Source of the DNA: ANME-2 cluster archaeon
Lineage (GTDB): Archaea > Halobacteriota > Methanosarcinia > Methanosarcinales > Methanogasteraceae
Direction of reading: 5' to 3'
Length of the DNA stretch: 11,836 bases
NCBI GenBank assembly: GCA_003601535.1
Contig: PIXW01000091.1
Location: 1 to 11,836, forward strand
Shown here: positions 905-10,995 of the stretch, piece by piece
Position numbering within the stretch: position 1 is the stretch's first letter
How the letters are laid out: every line of letters begins with the position of its first letter
The notes under the pieces: model-generated
The model's database searches: none
Told to the model about the DNA's origin: nothing
Seen by the model: only the letters and a program-made list of their open reading frames with translations
Position numbers and translations under genes: made by a program

Positions 905-973
905 TCTCCTGCAACGCTCGAGAGTTGACAGTCCACGGTTCCGGCAGCCCCAGAGTCCCAAACCTTAATGATG

Positions 974-983: not shown

Positions 984-1039
984 ATACATCTGAGATGATG
1001 ACTACATCATGCAGTCTCGTCGAATGCAGGAGCAGAGGC

Positions 1040-1543
1040 ATGATCTATACCGGACAGTCACGTGCATGCCTCACCGATATCGAGCATGGTTTTTATGGAA
1101 TCAGGAAGGCAGTCGAACAGCTCATAGGTCCGGTTGCGGGCACAGTATATTACAATGCCGCTATCGCTGGCGGCATCGCGTATGTCCAGGGAGCGCTCAG
1201 GTCTGACAGCATCACAGAATCAGCGCAGGGTTTTAGGGATTGTGTGGATGATTATGCACAGCTGGGATTCGGGGATTTCATCGTCGAAGAGATCGATTAT
1301 GAAGATGCGAAAGGTGTTGTCACATGCAAGGATGCGTTTGAAGGATGGGCGTGGAAGAAGCATGATGACACCTCAAAAGCCTGTTATTACTCATGCGGCA
1401 TCCTCGCAGGATTTATGAGGGCGCTCACAGGAAGAGAGGATATCGAATGTGTTGAGACAGAGTGTATTGCAGAGGGTGCAGATGCTTGCGTATTTGTGAT
1501 CGCACCAAAAAAGGATCTGATCAAGCAGAGATTGATGATATGA
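1040..1543 (+). CDS. V4R-domain (predicted small-ligand/hydrocarbon-binding) protein
   Basis: This protein resembles the V4R (4-vinyl reductase) fold, which is used as a small-molecule sensor or carrier domain in archaea and bacteria. Visible features are an early RACL segment, a helix with a glycine-rich end (YYNAAIAGG), a middle aromatic strand with FEGWAW, a Gly-rich helix (SCGILAGFMRALTG) and the closing pattern C-x4-C-x7-C (Cys137, 142 and 150), typical of the metal/ligand-binding end of V4R proteins. The open frame could start at ATG 968 (191 residues), but that ATG has no ribosome site. ATG 1040 has AGGAG seven nucleotides upstream and gives 167 residues beginning right at the domain, so it is preferred. 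The stop overlaps the next gene's ATG (ATGA at 1540), which indicates translational coupling. The likely role is the input sensor of the downstream GTPase cluster. This is inference. Confidence 0.75.
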   Translation: MIYTGQSRACLTDIEHGFYGIRKAVEQLIGPVAGTVYYNAAIAGGIAYVQGALRSDSITESAQGFRDCVDDYAQLGFGDFIVEEIDYEDAKGVVTCKDAFEGWAWKKHDDTSKACYYSCGILAGFMRALTGREDIECVETECIAEGADACVFVIAPKKDLIKQRLMI

Positions 1544-1809
1544 GTGATAATCACGAAATCGGAGCATGTGGATCTGCATGTTATATTTGTTTATCAAAAG
1601 AGAGTGGGGCATGTCAGGGATGCGAAAAATCGCAACCTCTGCTGATTGAGAAAGCCGGGTACGGATGTCCGTTCTACGAATGTGCCAGAAGACTGGATGT
1701 GGCGAACTGTCTGCGATGTGAGAAACGATCATGCGATCTAAAGAGAGGCTTATCAAAGGGCTACTGCCCTGCATACACCTGTCTGGTGGTAGGAGATACC
1801 GGTGCATGA
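1540..1809 (+). CDS. Small protein with 12 cysteines, DUF3795-like
   Basis: This 89-residue protein carries twelve cysteines in paired patterns: ACGSACYIC, ACQGC, GCPFYEC, NCLRC followed by C five residues after the second Cys of that pair, and YCPAYTC. The opening CG-x2-C-x2-C pattern and the CPFYEC motif recall the DUF3795 family of small archaeal and bacterial metal-binding proteins of unknown function. Iron-sulfur or zinc binding is likely. It starts at the ATG inside the ATGA overlap with the V4R gene. A longer frame from 1462 exists, but it would run 26 codons inside the upstream gene and is not favoured. Coupling to V4R genes on both sides suggests that it supplies or senses metal/redox state for them. 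No biochemical role is known to me. Confidence 0.7.
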   Translation: MSDNHEIGACGSACYICLSKESGACQGCEKSQPLLIEKAGYGCPFYECARRLDVANCLRCEKRSCDLKRGLSKGYCPAYTCLVVGDTGA

Positions 1810-1870
1810 TTGGTAAAAGCTTATGTAGCCACCCATCCAATCACGAATCAAACGCAAAGGAGAGGATCAG

Positions 1871-2311
1871 ATGACAAACAAAATCGAGTATGCGCACCGC
1901 ACATTTGCGGGCTTGGGAGCAGCGATCTGGGAACTATTCGGAAAGTCAAGTCAGGAGCAGACCAATCTCTTCTCCTCATACATCGGTGCTGAAATCGGCA
2001 AACTCCTCCTCGAGAAGGGTCTGGTGAATAAGGACACACCGGTAAAGGAGTTGATTGCGATCATCGCAGACGAACTTGAAGTTGGAGAGGAACCTGAGAC
2101 TACCGAAAGCGATGGTTCGGTTACGCTTACGATCAGAAAATGCAATGTCTGCCCAACGAAGGTTGGGGGAATCGCCTTCGAGACCACAGTATGTCCGATC
2201 CCTGGAATCGTCAGGGGCGCAATCGATGCTGTGAAGGGCACCAGAGGCGAGGGTTATGCAAAACTCGAGCCAGGTAAGGTGTGTGAGATAACAGAGAAGG
2301 TGAGCCCATGA
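1871..2311 (+). CDS. Second V4R-like protein with four conserved-type cysteines
   Basis: This 146-residue protein begins at ATG 1871, preceded by a strong Shine-Dalgarno sequence (AAAGGAGAGG) five nucleotides upstream. The first 70 residues are mostly helical (GAEIGKLLLEKG, VKELIAIIADEL). They are followed by an acidic linker and then a strand-rich half with Cys91-x2-Cys94, Cys108-Pro, a helix (GIVRGAIDAV) and Cys138 in a final strand. This helix-then-strand layout with late cysteines fits divergent V4R or predicted hydrocarbon-binding proteins, and the four cysteines could hold a metal or iron-sulfur centre. The gene is 61 nt after the Cys-rich gene, and that gap could hold an internal promoter. 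Its stop overlaps a small frame at 2308. Family assignment is less certain than for the first V4R gene. Confidence 0.6.
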   Translation: MTNKIEYAHRTFAGLGAAIWELFGKSSQEQTNLFSSYIGAEIGKLLLEKGLVNKDTPVKELIAIIADELEVGEEPETTESDGSVTLTIRKCNVCPTKVGGIAFETTVCPIPGIVRGAIDAVKGTRGEGYAKLEPGKVCEITEKVSP

Positions 2312-2418
2312 CCGAATATTTCTATGCAGCATCGGCAGTTAGAAAGGTTTTTGATGATAAAGCCCCAGATAGGAATAACAAACACAACCGCGGAACTTGG
2401 GGGTGTGTTGTGTGGTGA
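2308..2418 (+). CDS. Possible small protein (36 residues)
   Basis: An ATG at 2308 overlaps the stop of the V4R-like gene (ATGA) and has a very good ribosome site, AGGTGA at 2298-2303, four nucleotides upstream. It opens a 36-codon frame ending at TGA 2416-2418. The product begins MTEYFYAASAVRKVF and is otherwise polar and basic, with one Cys and four Trp/Tyr-type aromatics. I do not recognise it. The 136-nt space before the Roadblock gene is otherwise unexplained in an operon where other joints overlap. It may be a true small protein, a coupling frame that carries ribosomes toward the next gene, or the remains of a longer one. Confidence 0.35.
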   Translation: MTEYFYAASAVRKVFDDKAPDRNNKHNRGTWGCVVW

Positions 2419-2447
2419 CCTTCGAGTTGATCGGGTAGGTGAGTTGG

Positions 2448-2825
2448 ATGCCTGAAACCAAGAAAGACAGACTGGACATGATCCTTGCCAGATTCGGAGA
2501 AGTCGGGCAGATCAAAGCCGTCGGCATCGTCTCCAAGGAAGGATTGCTGATAACAGCTCGCATGCCGCCGGAGATGAACGAGCGGATCGTTGCAGCGCTC
2601 TGCTCCACGATCATGGCAAGCGCGGAGACTGCCAGTACACAGATGGGGACAGGAGCGGTGAGTGATATTCATGTGAAGACCGAGCAGGGAACGATACTGC
2701 TCCAGCCAGCCGGTGAAAAAGCGATCTTGATCGCACTGGCAGAATCCAGCGCTCAACTTGGGCTGATCATGATGGAGATCGAAGCGAGAGCGAAACAGGT
2801 GCAGGAGATCCTTGAAGAGGTATGA
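2448..2825 (+). CDS. Roadblock/LC7-domain protein (MglB-like)
   Basis: This 125-residue single-domain protein matches the Roadblock/LC7 fold. It has a first helix with a KKDRLDMIL-type start, a beta hairpin (IKAVGIVSKEGLLITARMP), a long helix (ERIVAALCSTIMASAETAS), two strands (SDIHVKTEQGTILLQPAG, then AILIALAES) and a last helix (LIMMEIEARAKQVQEIL). Such proteins dimerise and bind small Ras-like GTPases. Bacterial MglB is a GTPase-activating protein, and Roadblock proteins accompany GTPases in actinobacterial conservons. The ATG at 2448 is preferred over GTG 2439 because AGGTGA (2437-2442) lies five nucleotides before it. The stop is one nucleotide from the next gene's ATG, and that next gene encodes a GTPase domain, so a physical partnership is very likely. 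Confidence 0.88.
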   Translation: MPETKKDRLDMILARFGEVGQIKAVGIVSKEGLLITARMPPEMNERIVAALCSTIMASAETASTQMGTGAVSDIHVKTEQGTILLQPAGEKAILIALAESSAQLGLIMMEIEARAKQVQEILEEV

Positions 2826-2826
2826 C

Positions 2827-4026
2827 ATGGTGACAGATGCCGAATGCAAACGCAAGACCTATATTCCTATGCTCGATGAACTGCTTGGTGGTGGTATGCC
2901 TGCCGGCACCTCGATATTGTTCACAGCGATGCCGGGCGTGACGTCAGAGGTTTTCGGATATCAGATCATTGCCGAGCGCATGCGAAACGAAACGGATGTT
3001 TGCTTCATATACACAAACACCAGAACACCTGTTGAGATCGAACACGTATTTCAGAGATATGGATGGGATCTGCGATCATTTCTTGACTCGGATCAGGCAT
3101 TCTTTATCGATTCCATATCTCCAATGATGGGGATGCCAGCAATCGGCAAATATTCGATCGATGATTTTAGAGAGAGCGAGAAAACGATCACAAACGCGAT
3201 CTCTGATATCGCAGGAGGAGTCGCTGTAATTGAAGATATTTCAACGCTTCTCGATTCCATTGGTGTTGATCCGACATTCGACCTGATCGAGCGGTTGAAC
3301 AAGGAGGCACGGTCGAACGATGTGAATATGATATACATGTTCACACGATGGAACTATGAGAAGGTGATGCTCGACAGACTATCTGATATCGTTGACTGCG
3401 AGATCAAACTCTTCAGTGTCGAAGAGAAGGTGATTTATCGGCAGGTCTTTGCAATCACAAAATCGAACTGGATAAAGACTTCCGGAGCCAAGATATTCTT
3501 CGAGGTTTTAGAACCAGGTGGTGTCAGAATCTTTATACCGAAACTGCTGGTGACCGGTCCGTACAATGCCGGAAAAACAACATTCACCAAGGCAATTGCA
3601 CCGGATACTGTTTCAGTAGAGCGGCAGACATTTGAACTATTTCCTACGACAGTCGGGCTCGATATCGGACATATCGATTACAAAGGTTTCTCAGCTGACG
3701 TATTTGGCACTCCGGGTCAGGAACGATTCGATCTTCTGCTCGAACCACTTGGAAGAGAGGCTATCGGTACGTTTATCGTGATCGATTCGACAAAACCGGA
3801 GACGTTCGTGCGTGCAAAGGAGATGATCCGGATGTGCCGTACAGAGGCGATACCAAAGGTAATAATCGCCAACAAGCAGGACCTTCCAAACGCGCTGTCG
3901 CCTGATGAGATCAAGAAGAGGATGGCTCTCTGGGAGGATGTTCCGATCGTGCCAGTATCAGCAGCAAACAGACAGGGACTTGATGAGGCTCTGGACATTT
4001 TATTCAGCCTCATATACAGGATATGA
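2827..4026 (+). CDS. Degenerate KaiC/RecA-like domain fused to a Ras-like (COG2229-type) GTPase
   Basis: This 399-residue protein has two parts. Residues 1 to about 225 resemble KaiC/RecA-superfamily proteins: a 'LDELLGGGMPAG' start (17-27), a region aligned to Walker A that reads AMPGVTSE (34-41) with Ser40 replacing the catalytic lysine, and a kept Walker B (VAVIED, Glu136-Asp137). Residues about 238-399 form a complete small GTPase: G1 GPYNAGKT (244-251), G2 Thr274/275, G3 DVFGTPGQE (291-299), G4 NKQD (349-352) and G5 VSA (377-379). The FGTPGQERF form of G3 is the type found in MglA-like and COG2229 GTPases next to Roadblock genes. ATG 2827 is chosen over TTG 2812 because GAGG lies six nucleotides upstream. 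The start follows the Roadblock stop by 1 nt, and the stop overlaps the next gene by ATGA. The first half probably cannot hydrolyse ATP by itself. Confidence 0.85.
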   Translation: MVTDAECKRKTYIPMLDELLGGGMPAGTSILFTAMPGVTSEVFGYQIIAERMRNETDVCFIYTNTRTPVEIEHVFQRYGWDLRSFLDSDQAFFIDSISPMMGMPAIGKYSIDDFRESEKTITNAISDIAGGVAVIEDISTLLDSIGVDPTFDLIERLNKEARSNDVNMIYMFTRWNYEKVMLDRLSDIVDCEIKLFSVEEKVIYRQVFAITKSNWIKTSGAKIFFEVLEPGGVRIFIPKLLVTGPYNAGKTTFTKAIAPDTVSVERQTFELFPTTVGLDIGHIDYKGFSADVFGTPGQERFDLLLEPLGREAIGTFIVIDSTKPETFVRAKEMIRMCRTEAIPKVIIANKQDLPNALSPDEIKKRMALWEDVPIVPVSAANRQGLDEALDILFSLIYRI

Positions 4027-4709
4027 TTCCAAAAATAAGATCGGGAATTGCAGGTTTTGATAATCTGACCGGCGGTCTGCCAGAGAATACGATGACTCTG
4101 GTTTATGGTCCGCCAAAGACCGGGAAGTCTATATTCTGCTATCAATTTCTCCGCCAGTCCGTAGAAGAAGGGGATCTGTGCACGTATCTGATGACGGATT
4201 ATAGTTTATCCCAACTCGAACAGCAGATGATGGCATTTAACTGGTTCATCCATGATTATATCTCCAACAAAAGGTTATATGTGATCGATACGGCATCAGG
4301 CTCGGTTGGTGCGATACAAAAAGAGACCAGGAATATGATGGTATCTTTTCCGCAGAATCCAACTGATATCGCAAGCAAGCTCATCCAGCAACTGCAGTCC
4401 GTCTATCAGCAGGCGCAGCGATTCCGGTCGATTCTGGATTCATCGACCACCTTGTTCGCATTCAACTCACCGATCCTGATCATCAGGGTACTCAAGTCAT
4501 ACACCATGCGGATCAAGATGGCTGGCGGCACCGGACTCATCACGTACACTGAGGGATCAGTCGAGCCGCAGATCGAGACGATGCTGAAAGCTACTGTGGA
4601 TAACATCATCCATCTCGATGGCGAGGAACTTACCATTGAAGCGATGGCTGGGCTCAAACACGAAAAAGCGAGTTACAGGATCAGTGACGAGGGAATCGTG
4701 GTGCAGTAG
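4023..4709 (+). CDS. KaiC/RecA-superfamily ATPase-like protein
   Basis: This 228-residue protein has the KaiC-like start SGIAGFDNLTGGLPENT and an intact Walker A, GPPKTGKS (residues 29-36). At the place of Walker B the sequence reads LFAFNSPILII, with Asn148 where an Asp is expected (KaiC-type IDS), so catalysis may be weak or need a partner. Later LITYTEGS matches the family's strand after Walker B. One stretch (about residues 100-140, rich in Gln, Ser and Arg) looks helical or coiled. The gene begins inside the stop of the fusion gene (ATGA), so the two are co-translated. The preceding protein has the opposite damage (Walker A lost, acid kept), which suggests that the two form a mixed RecA-type assembly. 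FlaH, GvpD-like and circadian KaiC proteins are distant relatives. No closer role can be named. Confidence 0.8.
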   Translation: MIPKIRSGIAGFDNLTGGLPENTMTLVYGPPKTGKSIFCYQFLRQSVEEGDLCTYLMTDYSLSQLEQQMMAFNWFIHDYISNKRLYVIDTASGSVGAIQKETRNMMVSFPQNPTDIASKLIQQLQSVYQQAQRFRSILDSSTTLFAFNSPILIIRVLKSYTMRIKMAGGTGLITYTEGSVEPQIETMLKATVDNIIHLDGEELTIEAMAGLKHEKASYRISDEGIVVQ

Positions 4710-4757: not shown

Positions 4758-5768
4758 TTATGGGCGTTTCTTCGAGCCAGGACACGCCGCCTTCTTTTTG
4801 ATCCGGTAATAATTAAGCGGATGCTTGATCCCTTCGCACAGGGTATCAGCGCCAGTGCAATTCCCGTACGTCTTCATCGCATCGCAACCAGGTGCGGTGT
4901 ATTCGCGTCCTGCGATGTGCTCGACCTGGTACCTGGTTCGTGATTCATCAAAGTCAGGCGATCCACCGAACATCTGAACGATCCCGTCCACATCCATGCC
5001 GATATTCAGCAGAAACGAGGTAACTGCAAACCGTGCTGAATGCGGAAGGTTGATACCCTGCTGAAGTCTTGCGAGTATATGTGCGATGCACGGCGGGAAT
5101 GCCTCGGTACAAACCGCGCCTTTGATATCAAACTCGGTTTTTCGCGTTCCAAGTGATTCATTCACAGCACTGACGTATTTCGATAACGCATCGCAGATTT
5201 CAGACGGGATATCAAGCGGCAGATCATGCTGTATGTGATCGCTGATCGCCTCCAGCAATAGTCGTGTAAATTCGTGTGTGGAAAGTGAAACCCAGCCGCG
5301 GTGCAGCCTTCGGTTCACCAGTTTCCATCCGGGGTCATGCATGCGGTGCGCGTATCTGATGTAATCGGTAAAATGCATGTCGAATCCTCGATCAGACAAA
5401 TCAACATGCATATCAAACTCAGCGCCCATTGCTATCAGGAAATCCTTTGGCTCGGTTTTAAGAGAGTCATAGACTGCTTTTGACTCTGCAAGAGCATATC
5501 TGCGGATCAGATAAGAATCATCAATACAGGATATGATTATCCTGGCAACCGGATATGATAGCAGTTCGATCTCTGCCTGAATCTCCGTACCAACGTTCTT
5601 CTCGATTCTGCCCTCGATTGCCTGAATCACCCGTTCCATGCTGCGAGCGCGGACGCGATCATACACACGTTTATTGAGTAGATCCGGAATGGTGACCCCC
5701 AGTTCCCGGACATACGCAGTGGCTCCGGATGTGAAAGGATAGATCGCGAAACTGATATCAGGGATCAT
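4758..5768 (-). CDS. priL: DNA primase large subunit PriL
   Basis: This 336-residue protein matches archaeal/eukaryotic primase large subunits, which pair with the catalytic PriS to start RNA or DNA primers during replication. It opens with the family-typical 'ALYPF'-like element (FAIYPFTSGATAYV). The C-terminal iron-sulfur domain is clear: FPPCIAHIL (Cys228), a helix with ARF, PDFDES, RYQVEHIAG, then GCDAMKTYGNC (Cys296 and 305) and LCEGIKHPLNYY (Cys312). These four cysteines bind a 4Fe-4S cluster in known PriL proteins. An open frame continues upstream into the tRNA, so ATG 5768 is taken as the start, 26 nt after the mature tRNA end. GAGGT lies about 15 nt upstream, a rather long spacing. 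Co-transcription with the two tRNAs is likely. The catalytic subunit PriS is not in this window. Confidence 0.92.
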   Translation of the reverse strand: MIPDISFAIYPFTSGATAYVRELGVTIPDLLNKRVYDRVRARSMERVIQAIEGRIEKNVGTEIQAEIELLSYPVARIIISCIDDSYLIRRYALAESKAVYDSLKTEPKDFLIAMGAEFDMHVDLSDRGFDMHFTDYIRYAHRMHDPGWKLVNRRLHRGWVSLSTHEFTRLLLEAISDHIQHDLPLDIPSEICDALSKYVSAVNESLGTRKTEFDIKGAVCTEAFPPCIAHILARLQQGINLPHSARFAVTSFLLNIGMDVDGIVQMFGGSPDFDESRTRYQVEHIAGREYTAPGCDAMKTYGNCTGADTLCEGIKHPLNYYRIKKKAACPGSKKRP

Positions 5769-5794
5769 GCACTGTTTCTCTATACCTCTTGAGA

Positions 5795-5891
5795 TGGGCC
5801 CACTGCGATTCGAACGCAGGACCGCTCGGTTTCTCATTACGGATCTAAGAATTATGAGCCGAGCGCTCTAACCTGGCTAAGCTATGGGCCC
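5795..5891 (-). tRNA. tRNA with CAT anticodon, 22-nt intron (elongator Met likely, Ile2 possible)
   Basis: The minus strand gives a full cloverleaf. The acceptor stem is GGGCCCA paired with TGGGCCC followed by A73. The D arm contains AGCTTAGCCAGGTTAGAGC. The anticodon arm is CTCGG/CCGAG around CTCATA-A, and the T arm is CTGCG-TTCGAAT-CGCAG. The anticodon is CAT. The anticodon loop is interrupted between positions 37 and 38 by 22 nt (5831-5852). Without it the tRNA is 75 nt. No CCA is encoded. CAT is shared by elongator Met and Ile2 (lysidine/agmatidine-modified). Introns at this site are common in archaeal elongator Met tRNAs, so Met is favoured, but the identity is not settled. Confidence 0.9.
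5831..5852 (-). other. tRNA intron (bulge-helix-bulge type)
   Basis: These 22 nt lie between positions 37 and 38 of the CAT tRNA, the canonical archaeal intron site. The intron's ATGAG pairs with the anticodon-side CTCAT to make the central helix expected of a bulge-helix-bulge motif cut by the tRNA splicing endonuclease. Confidence 0.85.
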
Positions 5892-9837: not shown

Positions 9838-10995
9838 CTACCCGTCCTTCTTTCTCTCAATCCGAACGTATCCGGCAAGCATGAGCAGCCCGACCGCGAG
9901 GAGCGCAATCGTCGGCAGCTCCGGCACCGGGGCGCATGGGGCTGGTCCGCCGAGTCTTGGACTGGTTATTACTTTGCCATGACTCGCATAGTATGTCTGG
10001 TCATAGATGCTTGCGTCGATTCTTGTCTCGTTGTTTGTGCCCCACCAGTTATTGGCTGTGTTCACATCAGAGGACTGGTGGTTCTCGAACTGCCACTCGT
10101 AACCACCGCTCGTGTCGTTGTACACACCGTTTGCGATGATGTTGTTGTTCTCGATGGTGTTGTCTGTGCTTCCTCCCTCCAGGTAGAAGCCTGAGTCTTC
10201 GTTGTTCTGCACCCAGTTGCAGGAGAAGTTGCTGTCGCACGAACGCGACAGGTAAATGCCCCACTGGTTATTCGAGCAGTCGTTCCCTGTCAGCATGTTG
10301 TTAGTGGTCAAAATCTCCAAAAAGATGCCTCTGTTGCCGTTGTTCGAGCAGTTGTTCCCTGTCAGCGTGTTGTATTGCACATCAATCATGTAGATGCCAT
10401 CGTTGTCGTTGTTCGAGCAGTCGTTCCCTGTCAGCATGTTGTATTTCGATTCATAATACATCGCGATGCCATCGTTGTCGTTGTTCGAGCAGTCGTTCCC
10501 TGTCAGCATGTTGCTGCCCGAAGCCTGCAAGTAGATGCCGTTGTAGTTGCCCGATACGATGTTGTCCGAGATATTGCAGTGATATGCGCAGTTGAGGAAA
10601 AACCCTGCAAACCCACCTTGTATATACGTAGTTGTCCCTGTCGCCCCGGTCACCTTGAATCCGGTGATGTTCACATAATTCGCAGTCACATAGAAGACGT
10701 AATCAGCCGATGTCTCCGCGGTCACGGTCACCACACCTGCGCCCTCGCCTTCCAGCGTGAGCCGCTTGTCCACATCCACGTTCTCGTTGTAGCTGCCGTT
10801 GTACACATAGATCGTATCGCCGGCGGTTGCATTGTCGATCGCTGCCTGTATCTGACCGGGATCGATCGCGTGAAACGTCGTGTCGCCTGCATTCCACCAG
10901 CCGGTCTGGTTCACATTTATTTGTGTCGCGCTCGCTGCTCCACAGAGCAGGACTATGAACGCAAGTCCAAATATTGTACTATTCACTTTGTTCAT
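9838..10995 (-). CDS. Secreted parallel beta-helix (NosD/PbH1-like) surface protein with PEF-CTERM-like tail
   Basis: This 385-residue exported protein has a signal peptide at residues 1-23 (basic start, hydrophobic GLAFIVLLCGAASA). It then shows a NosD-like entry motif, IQAAIDNATAGDTIYVYNGSY, followed by VDKRLTLEGEG. A right-handed parallel beta-helix follows, with repeats such as NMLTGNDCSNNDNDGIYM at 23-24 residue steps. A Pro-rich linker leads to PELPT, a membrane helix and a basic end (RIERKKDG). That tail resembles the archaeal PEF-CTERM signal, with Leu for Phe, which is cut and lipid-anchored by an archaeosortase. Several N-x-S/T sites suggest N-glycosylation. The start at 10995 has GGAGG ten nucleotides upstream. 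Such proteins act at the cell surface, often binding or cutting polysaccharides. The ligand here is unknown. Confidence 0.85.
   Translation of the reverse strand: MNKVNSTIFGLAFIVLLCGAASATQINVNQTGWWNAGDTTFHAIDPGQIQAAIDNATAGDTIYVYNGSYNENVDVDKRLTLEGEGAGVVTVTAETSADYVFYVTANYVNITGFKVTGATGTTTYIQGGFAGFFLNCAYHCNISDNIVSGNYNGIYLQASGSNMLTGNDCSNNDNDGIAMYYESKYNMLTGNDCSNNDNDGIYMIDVQYNTLTGNNCSNNGNRGIFLEILTTNNMLTGNDCSNNQWGIYLSRSCDSNFSCNWVQNNEDSGFYLEGGSTDNTIENNNIIANGVYNDTSGGYEWQFENHQSSDVNTANNWWGTNNETRIDASIYDQTYYASHGKVITSPRLGGPAPCAPVPELPTIALLAVGLLMLAGYVRIERKKDG
10271..10515 (-). repeat. Four tandem 69-72 bp repeats inside the beta-helix gene
   Basis: The plus-strand string beginning TTCGAGCAGTCGTTCCCTGT recurs at 10271, 10343 (one changed base in this part), 10412 and 10484, spaced 72, 69 and 72 bp. 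Each unit encodes one 23- or 24-residue beta-helix coil with the motif LTGN(D/N)CSNN. DNA conservation is higher than protein folding alone needs, which points to recent duplication or gene conversion. Confidence 0.85.

Follow-up and report, generated by a model that had tools for sequence, protein, structure and literature searches.

The window analysed here (11,836 nucleotides, contig PIXW01000091.1 of assembly GCA_003601535.1, from an ANME-2 cluster archaeon) carries a stable core of three genes encoding a Roadblock/LC7 protein, a fusion of a KaiC-like domain with a Ras-like GTPase and a stand-alone KaiC-like ATPase, hereafter KAI2. Upstream of the core lie genes for a V4R-domain protein, for a cysteine-rich protein (CYS) and for a protein designated P4, followed by the remnant of a seventh gene, P5. 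We lean, with moderate confidence, towards the view that this set constitutes a switch in which Roadblock regulates a Ras-like GTPase carried on a KaiC scaffold, with V4R-fold sensors providing the input.

The three-gene core and its inheritance

The Roadblock/LC7 protein (128 amino acids; 2439..2825, + strand) scores 63.3 bits against its Pfam model (PF03259, cut-off 23); the fusion (399 amino acids; 2827..4026, +) joins a pseudo-KaiC part (residues ~1–236; Pfam KaiC, 72.7 bits) to an MglA/Arf-like GTPase (~238–399; Arf, 49.8 bits; Ras, 40 bits), and KAI2 (228 amino acids; 4023..4709, +; KaiC, 98.9 bits) has an intact Walker A motif, GPPKTGKS. The domain assignments made in the initial annotation for the V4R, Roadblock, fusion and last KaiC genes thus all have Pfam support. 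Among chains in the PDB, the GTPase part is matched best by the Arf-like 4v0k (1.7e-12) and then by Arf, Rab and Ras, and the Roadblock protein by 9jue (3.1e-16), 7f8m (4.2e-16), 7yh1 (6.8e-9) and the conservon protein CvnB5 (3leq; 2.4e-4).

Homologues of the fusion at E≤1e-20 occur in 70 of the 392 genomes of the phylum and in 29 of its 138 genera, several of these matches covering the GTPase part only. Of the 56 neighbourhoods read, 16 make up a first set and the other 40 come from 37 of these 70 genomes; they were interpreted with our own hidden Markov models (HMMs) and by gene order in a survey centred on the phylum of the window, the loci being chosen by the fusion and not by V4R. In this sample one locus appears under two names, L022 and L056, and several of L008–L023 are places identical to those in the family genomes G392–G407 (e.g., L010 and G392:C55) and hence not independent. 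The KaiC gene adjoins the fusion in 55 of the 56 loci (the exception is L085) and Roadblock adjoins the fusion, or is fused with it, in 49; of the seven remaining loci two (L017 and L057) end at contig ends and five (L088–L092, families f16 and f25), which form one clade, are without Roadblock. In L087 (6652–8292, −) KaiC, GTPase and Roadblock form a single protein of 546 amino acids (Robl_LC7, 48.4 bits), which is a good target for single-chain modelling; a degenerate KaiC gene lies just before it.

The fusion tree comprises two clades, A and B, and 15 of the 17 genomes of the window's family possess both copies, which are ~40% identical. Clade A includes the window, ANME-2c, f3 and sequences from sources naming Methanothermobacter, Methanobacterium or Methanomassiliicoccales, and its gene order, where seen, is Roadblock-fusion-KaiC; in clade B the order is mostly KaiC-fusion-Roadblock, with Roadblock-KaiC-fusion in L061 and L063. 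The core partners have been inherited together, since the trees of Roadblock, with 44 rows, and of KaiC, with 50, display the same A/B split with one change each, a value that none of 500 shuffles of these quick trees equalled. As to the expectation that the six genes of the window would stay together across genera, it holds for the core, the full set being confined to part of one family; homologues of the core are not scattered in the relatives, as can be judged from the joint presence of the three genes in most loci, from their matching trees and from the triple fusion of L087. The clade B core is found beside TruD and/or YhbY in L065, L067, L071, L072, L058, L059 and L066 (by Pfam in L065, by eye or by length in the others), and S19e- and PDCD5-like genes were seen by eye near it in L058; a link of the clade B core to translation is possible.

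The motifs of the two halves of the fusion were counted in 167 aligned proteins, 51 taken from the loci and 116 being the best-scoring of 852 database homologues, a redundant set. The GTPase half shows no variation at the P-loop lysine, at the threonines of the switches or at N, K and D of the NKxD motif; the G3 glutamine is present in 164 of the 167, the G3 aspartate being replaced by glycine in all. The Walker A lysine of the fused KaiC half is found in none of the 167 at the aligned position, which is occupied by Ser (104), Gly (32), Cys (15) or other residues (16); this half looks like a pseudo-ATPase because the lysine is missing throughout, and the “RecA-like output” initially proposed lacks support as far as this half is concerned and needs revision. 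In KAI2 the GK[ST] of Walker A is kept in 15 of 15 members of clade A (the window and 14 loci) and in eight of the 35 rows from clade B, each of these eight being an f9 sequence; the sequence of L082 is truncated. Since the GTPase motifs are kept and the Walker A lysine is not, the constant activity of the set would be the binding or hydrolysis of GTP, and clade A and f9 plausibly have an ATP-driven KaiC partner.

Sensor-type genes around Roadblock

The window's genome (78% complete, 263 contigs, among which the window is C17) contains five Roadblock genes, including those of two fusion loci. Downstream of the Roadblock gene on C214 lies a gene for a V4R-like protein (the pair spans L105:1847–2678) that matches the V4R alignment profile at 96.6% and Pfam V4R at 16.6 bits, under the cut-off, and the Roadblock gene on C72 is preceded by one for a P5-like protein, A6 (the pair spans L106:2982–3838), which matches the P5 profile at 75.6% and has no Pfam match. 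Profile comparisons of A6 with P4, with V4R and with protein A7 gave no support for similarity, and the profile of A7 has no match among solved structures at E≤1. Across the 17 genomes of the family the adjacency to Roadblock is kept in all genomes having the partner, 16 of 16 for the V4R-like and 15 of 15 for the P5-like protein. These recurrent pairs are the strongest new support for a putative Roadblock unit with V4R-type partners, and the neighbourhood constitutes a concrete, purifiable candidate complex.

The V4R protein of the window (181 amino acids; 998..1543, +) scores 39.9 bits with Pfam V4R (PF02830, curated cut-off 31). The profile of its family matches the phenol sensors MopR (2.5e-17), PoxR (8.8e-13) and DmpR and then MJ1460, no TRAPPC3 chain appearing at E≤1 among the solved structures. 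Residues C129, E153, C156 and C164 are kept in 18–19 of 19 sequences and the resulting pattern (C, E-x2-C, x7-C) aligns with that of MopR, in which these residues bind zinc; by its sequence the window protein resembles phenol sensors of the zinc type. V4R joins the core in three lineages, f1 (the family of the window), f9 and f31: in the 747 kb made up by the window and the 56 loci, our V4R HMM detected 22 open reading frames (ORFs), every one within the core cluster. They fall in eight loci of the first set, in ten f9 loci, in L064, which has three, and in the window, so that 19 of the 56 loci carry V4R. V4R is present in 213 of the 392 genomes of the phylum, mostly with one to three genes each, and a whole-genome search of ten genomes picked for having V4R beside the core placed at the core 12 of 22 V4R genes scoring above the cut-off; in G133 the sole V4R, the sole Roadblock and the sole fusion match at E≤1e-20 are all neighbours. 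In the f9 loci L076 (9164–10825) and L079 (9121–10747), V4R is followed by genes resembling, by eye, a precorrin-2 dehydrogenase and a siroheme-decarboxylase-like regulator.

The type of sensor is exchanged among lineages. Ahead of Roadblock, L021, L022/L056 and L053 encode multi-PAS proteins (by Pfam, with a weak STAS match in two proteins), and so, judged by eye, do L054 and L055; after Roadblock come, in L082 (4541–6052, −), genes for a protoglobin and for V4R, a gas and a ligand sensor side by side, and in L069 one for a universal stress protein. Of the signal flow initially proposed, from sensor through switch to a RecA-like output, the sensor part gains support because V4R joins the cluster in three lineages and PAS or protoglobin in others, the output part lacking support for the fused KaiC, which has no Walker A lysine.

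P4 (146 amino acids; 1871..2311, +), which had been taken for a second V4R sensor, is not recognisable as a V4R member by its sequence: the window protein matches no Pfam family, none of 25 members has a Pfam V4R match, and the profile–profile comparison by HHalign, made with shallow alignments, yields 0.3%. What stands of the claim of two V4R sensors is the first gene and, for P4, a fold like that of TRAPPC3/Bet3 in the V4R/Bet3 superfamily, predicted from a model (predicted local distance difference test, pLDDT, 73) whose helices and four-stranded sheet match solved members of this fold. The criterion of Podar (2008), a pair of glycines in helix 2 and another in helix 5, has its counterpart in G39/G43 and G112/G116, present in 25 of 25 sequences, none of which falls below 66% identity with the window protein. 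No MetOD1 match was obtained in the 25 members with a Pfam copy in which the presence of that model is unconfirmed; UniRef names homologue P0143 “Metanogen output domain-containing”. P4 orthologues are found in 15 of the 17 genomes of the family, and the CYS gene lies upstream of P4 in nine of the 16 loci of the first set. CYS (89 amino acids; 1540..1809, +) does contain the 12 cysteines attributed to it and is weakly DUF3795-like (E 0.0029; 18.5 bits, under the cut-off of 22.6).

Between P4 and Roadblock the relatives possess a further gene, P5, encoding ~163–177 amino acids, of which the window retains a pseudogene remnant (2308..2438, +). A DNA alignment with five relatives indicates that the 127 nt ahead of Roadblock are the remains of P5: the start and the final ~110 nt survive, ~390 bp are deleted and the rest is frameshifted. 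Intact P5 is found in 14 of the 17 family genomes, belonging to four genera, the three lacking it being the window's own and two that are 72–73% complete. The damage in the window may be an assembly error, against which there is the indirect indication that four long contigs (10.8–39.6 kb) carry P4 homologues 91–96% identical and none is among the listed P5 homologues. Several sequences (L019:8639–9148, P0211–P0214 and 2380–2420 of the window) are frameshifted near the same C-terminal place of P5, which may reflect sequencing error, decay or frameshifting. Profile comparisons of P5 with V4R and with P4 supported no similarity, and the predicted P5 model (pLDDT 54.6) was discarded as evidence of fold.

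Possible functions and relation to known systems

According to the reading that we favour, the V4R-fold proteins (V4R, probably P4 and, in the relatives, P5) would respond to the zinc or redox state or to the binding of a ligand, hydrophobic or aromatic in nature. Their response would bring about a change in the Roadblock dimer, which would determine the nucleotide state in which the GTPase is found; the GTPase would in turn alter its fused pseudo-KaiC and, by way of this domain, the neighbouring KaiC ATPase, which is probably the ATP-dependent effector in the clade of the window. The physical contacts, the direction of the signal, a role of Roadblock as GTPase-activating protein or as guanine nucleotide exchange factor (GEF), the ligand and the output are what we infer within this scheme. 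Several observations weigh against it. A GGxPxGK[ST] stretch that fits a loose P-loop pattern occurs a few residues before the Walker A site in 42 of the 167 fusions; normal KaiC proteins have a similar lead-in ahead of the true Walker A, and the stretch is taken as this usual lead-in and not counted as a P-loop. The fusion lacks an adjacent Roadblock in all five sampled f16/f25 loci, Roadblock being located elsewhere in those genomes, and in f3/f4 there is a paralogous core beside TruD/YhbY genes at which no sensor was recognised. Furthermore, V4R accompanies the core in its three lineages only, V4R orthologues are present in ten of the 17 genomes of the window's family and missing from seven, and no V4R was found in the upstream DNA at the site in L015, L018–L020 and L023.

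An assembly like TRAPP would be a special form of the favoured scheme, in which dimers of V4R/Bet3-fold proteins and of Roadblock together serve the GTPase as a GEF platform, the part that TRAPP plays for Rab1. We regard this idea, the shared ground of which is the descent of V4R and TRAPPC3 from one ancestor, as unlikely: the partner is Roadblock and not a longin, the GTPase is nearest to Arf-like chains with Rab behind, P4 has no Pfam TRAPP match and is linked to the fold by the model and not by the V4R profile comparison described above, the V4R profile of the operon leads to MopR rather than to TRAPPC3, and the gaps in Z score within one superfamily are modest. It is likewise unlikely, on our estimate, that non-Asgard archaea carry a TRAPP-like regulator in which dimers of V4R/Bet3-fold proteins, docked on those of Roadblock, control a GTPase of the Arf/MglA type that has the pseudo-KaiC as built-in effector scaffold; were this true, the V4R-Roadblock-GTPase partnership behind TRAPP would be an older archaeal device for ligand sensing. 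The set might instead drive a surface machinery, as an MglA/MglB-like switch of polarity, motility or pili. A Roadblock partner and a GTPase without the G3 aspartate would suit such a switch, KAI2 matches ArlH at 2.6e-12 (under the cut-off of the ArlH model) and, a further point against the favoured scheme, archaeal type IV pilus loci often encode Roadblock/LC7 proteins and have several KaiC families associated with them, according to PMC4858521. No pilus, archaellum or chemotaxis gene was noticed by eye in the eight loci with listed ORFs, the other loci being without full annotation, and we consider this alternative improbable.

A KaiC-centred timer or ATPase hub, the ATP cycle of which the GTPase merely modulates, would agree with the GK[ST] conserved throughout the clade A KAI2 proteins; the absence of the Walker A lysine from every fused KaiC and the loss of GK[ST] from clade B outside f9 render it decidedly improbable. 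That the genes are simply neighbours with no functional link appears scarcely credible: the narrow distribution of the CYS, P4 and V4R orthologues would fit, but for the core this notion is contradicted by the order kept across genera, by the triple fusion and by the congruent trees; for CYS it may still hold.

The Roadblock-regulated switch that we favour resembles in part several known systems. As in actinobacterial conservons (CvnA–D), of which CvnB5 is matched by the present Roadblock, the GTPase has the G3 motif FGTPGQ, as CvnD does; unlike conservons, the set contains added KaiC parts, and a Pfam scan of the proteins between 38 and 8214 detected no histidine kinase. With MglA/MglB of Myxococcus and Thermus it shares a Ras-like GTPase with a Roadblock partner gene beside it (here in the window and 49 of the 56 loci) and a G3 without the usual aspartate (in part after PMC4316618); it differs in that the GTPase is fused to a pseudo-KaiC instead of being single-domain and has V4R, PAS or globin proteins as neighbours. 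In PMC4316618 the MglA of archaea that make up “group 4” are described as small GTPases whose gene neighbours are not conserved. The stand-alone V4R, which resembles MopR/PoxR in sequence, is not attached to a transcription activator as it is in these phenol sensors. The combination of active and inactivated KaiC domains with signalling domains is reminiscent of archaeal KaiC signalling hubs, as reported in work cited by PMC5847659.

TRAPP and the Asgard TRAPPC3, Roadblock and GTPase proteins (PMC10933270) likewise unite a V4R/Bet3 fold, a Roadblock-type fold and a small GTPase; here Roadblock/LC7 takes the place of longin, no longin family being among the Pfam matches of the cluster, and an Arf/MglA-like GTPase that of Rab. 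According to the same source, the GTPase genes of Asgard MK-D1 lie generally outside operons with such partner genes and are difficult to match with them, whereas the genes described here lie in one cluster, so that the genome layout alone names matched archaeal sets of a small GTPase, a Roadblock partner and V4R-type partners. V4R was proposed in 2008 as the ancestor of Bet3, and the functions of archaeal V4R proteins were then not thoroughly understood (PMC2253512); the present set suggests a signalling route in methane-oxidising archaea. No description of a KaiC-GTPase-Roadblock set was found among the titles and openings of abstracts listed by the literature searches, several of these lists being limited to 12–20 titles (a coverage that leaves outside a 2017 mBio review on KaiC), and its novelty is provisional.

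Layout of the locus and flanking features

The initial annotation described a compact chain of six genes on one strand. The ATGA overlaps at 1540 and 4023 and the 1-nt gap at 2826 were found as claimed when the sequence was re-read; the chain is not unbroken, since 61 nt and a second TATA-like motif separate CYS from P4. The start of the V4R gene, formerly placed at 1040, is most likely at 998, where eight relatives (L008–L014 and L016) also have Met; a start at 968 was ruled out since it falls within a TATA-like motif, CCTTAAT (963..969, +), ~29 nt 5′ of the ATG at 998, of which TTAAT is conserved in eight of eight aligned sequences and the whole in seven, L016 deviating. The second motif, CTTATGTA (1820..1827, +), lies before P4 and is found in eight of ten aligned sequences, with TTATGTA in nine; L016 has TTTATGTA instead and L023 none. 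Both motifs may be promoters and, given the 61-nt gap and the second of them, two transcription units, V4R-CYS and P4-(P5)-Roadblock-fusion-KaiC, are plausible. The reading as a single operon is weakened by this second motif and by ~0.7 kb inserted between CYS and P4 in one relative (L008:890–1640). All six genes display ratios of non-synonymous to synonymous substitution (dN/dS) of 0.03–0.26 in pairs of the window with L016, L009 or L023 and are therefore not chance ORFs.

The nearest named relatives of the fusion protein are from metagenome-assembled genomes of ANME-2/Methanosarcinales, two of them assigned to Ca. Methanogasteraceae; the archaeon of the window is ANME-2c-like. The cluster is flanked by TauE (38–793) and by PriL, the large subunit of archaeal primase (4758–5837, −), other features of the window being tRNAs, a beta-CASP protein, DUF1614 and CfbD of F430 synthesis. 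A predicted tRNA-Tyr with the odd anticodon ata (5795–5891, −) overlaps the annotated start of PriL, the true start of which is probably further downstream, since the family match begins only at residue 29. Finally, 9838–10995 (−) encodes a protein that is rich in repeats and looks secreted; by eye it resembles NosD, and its C-terminus is PEF-CTERM-like.

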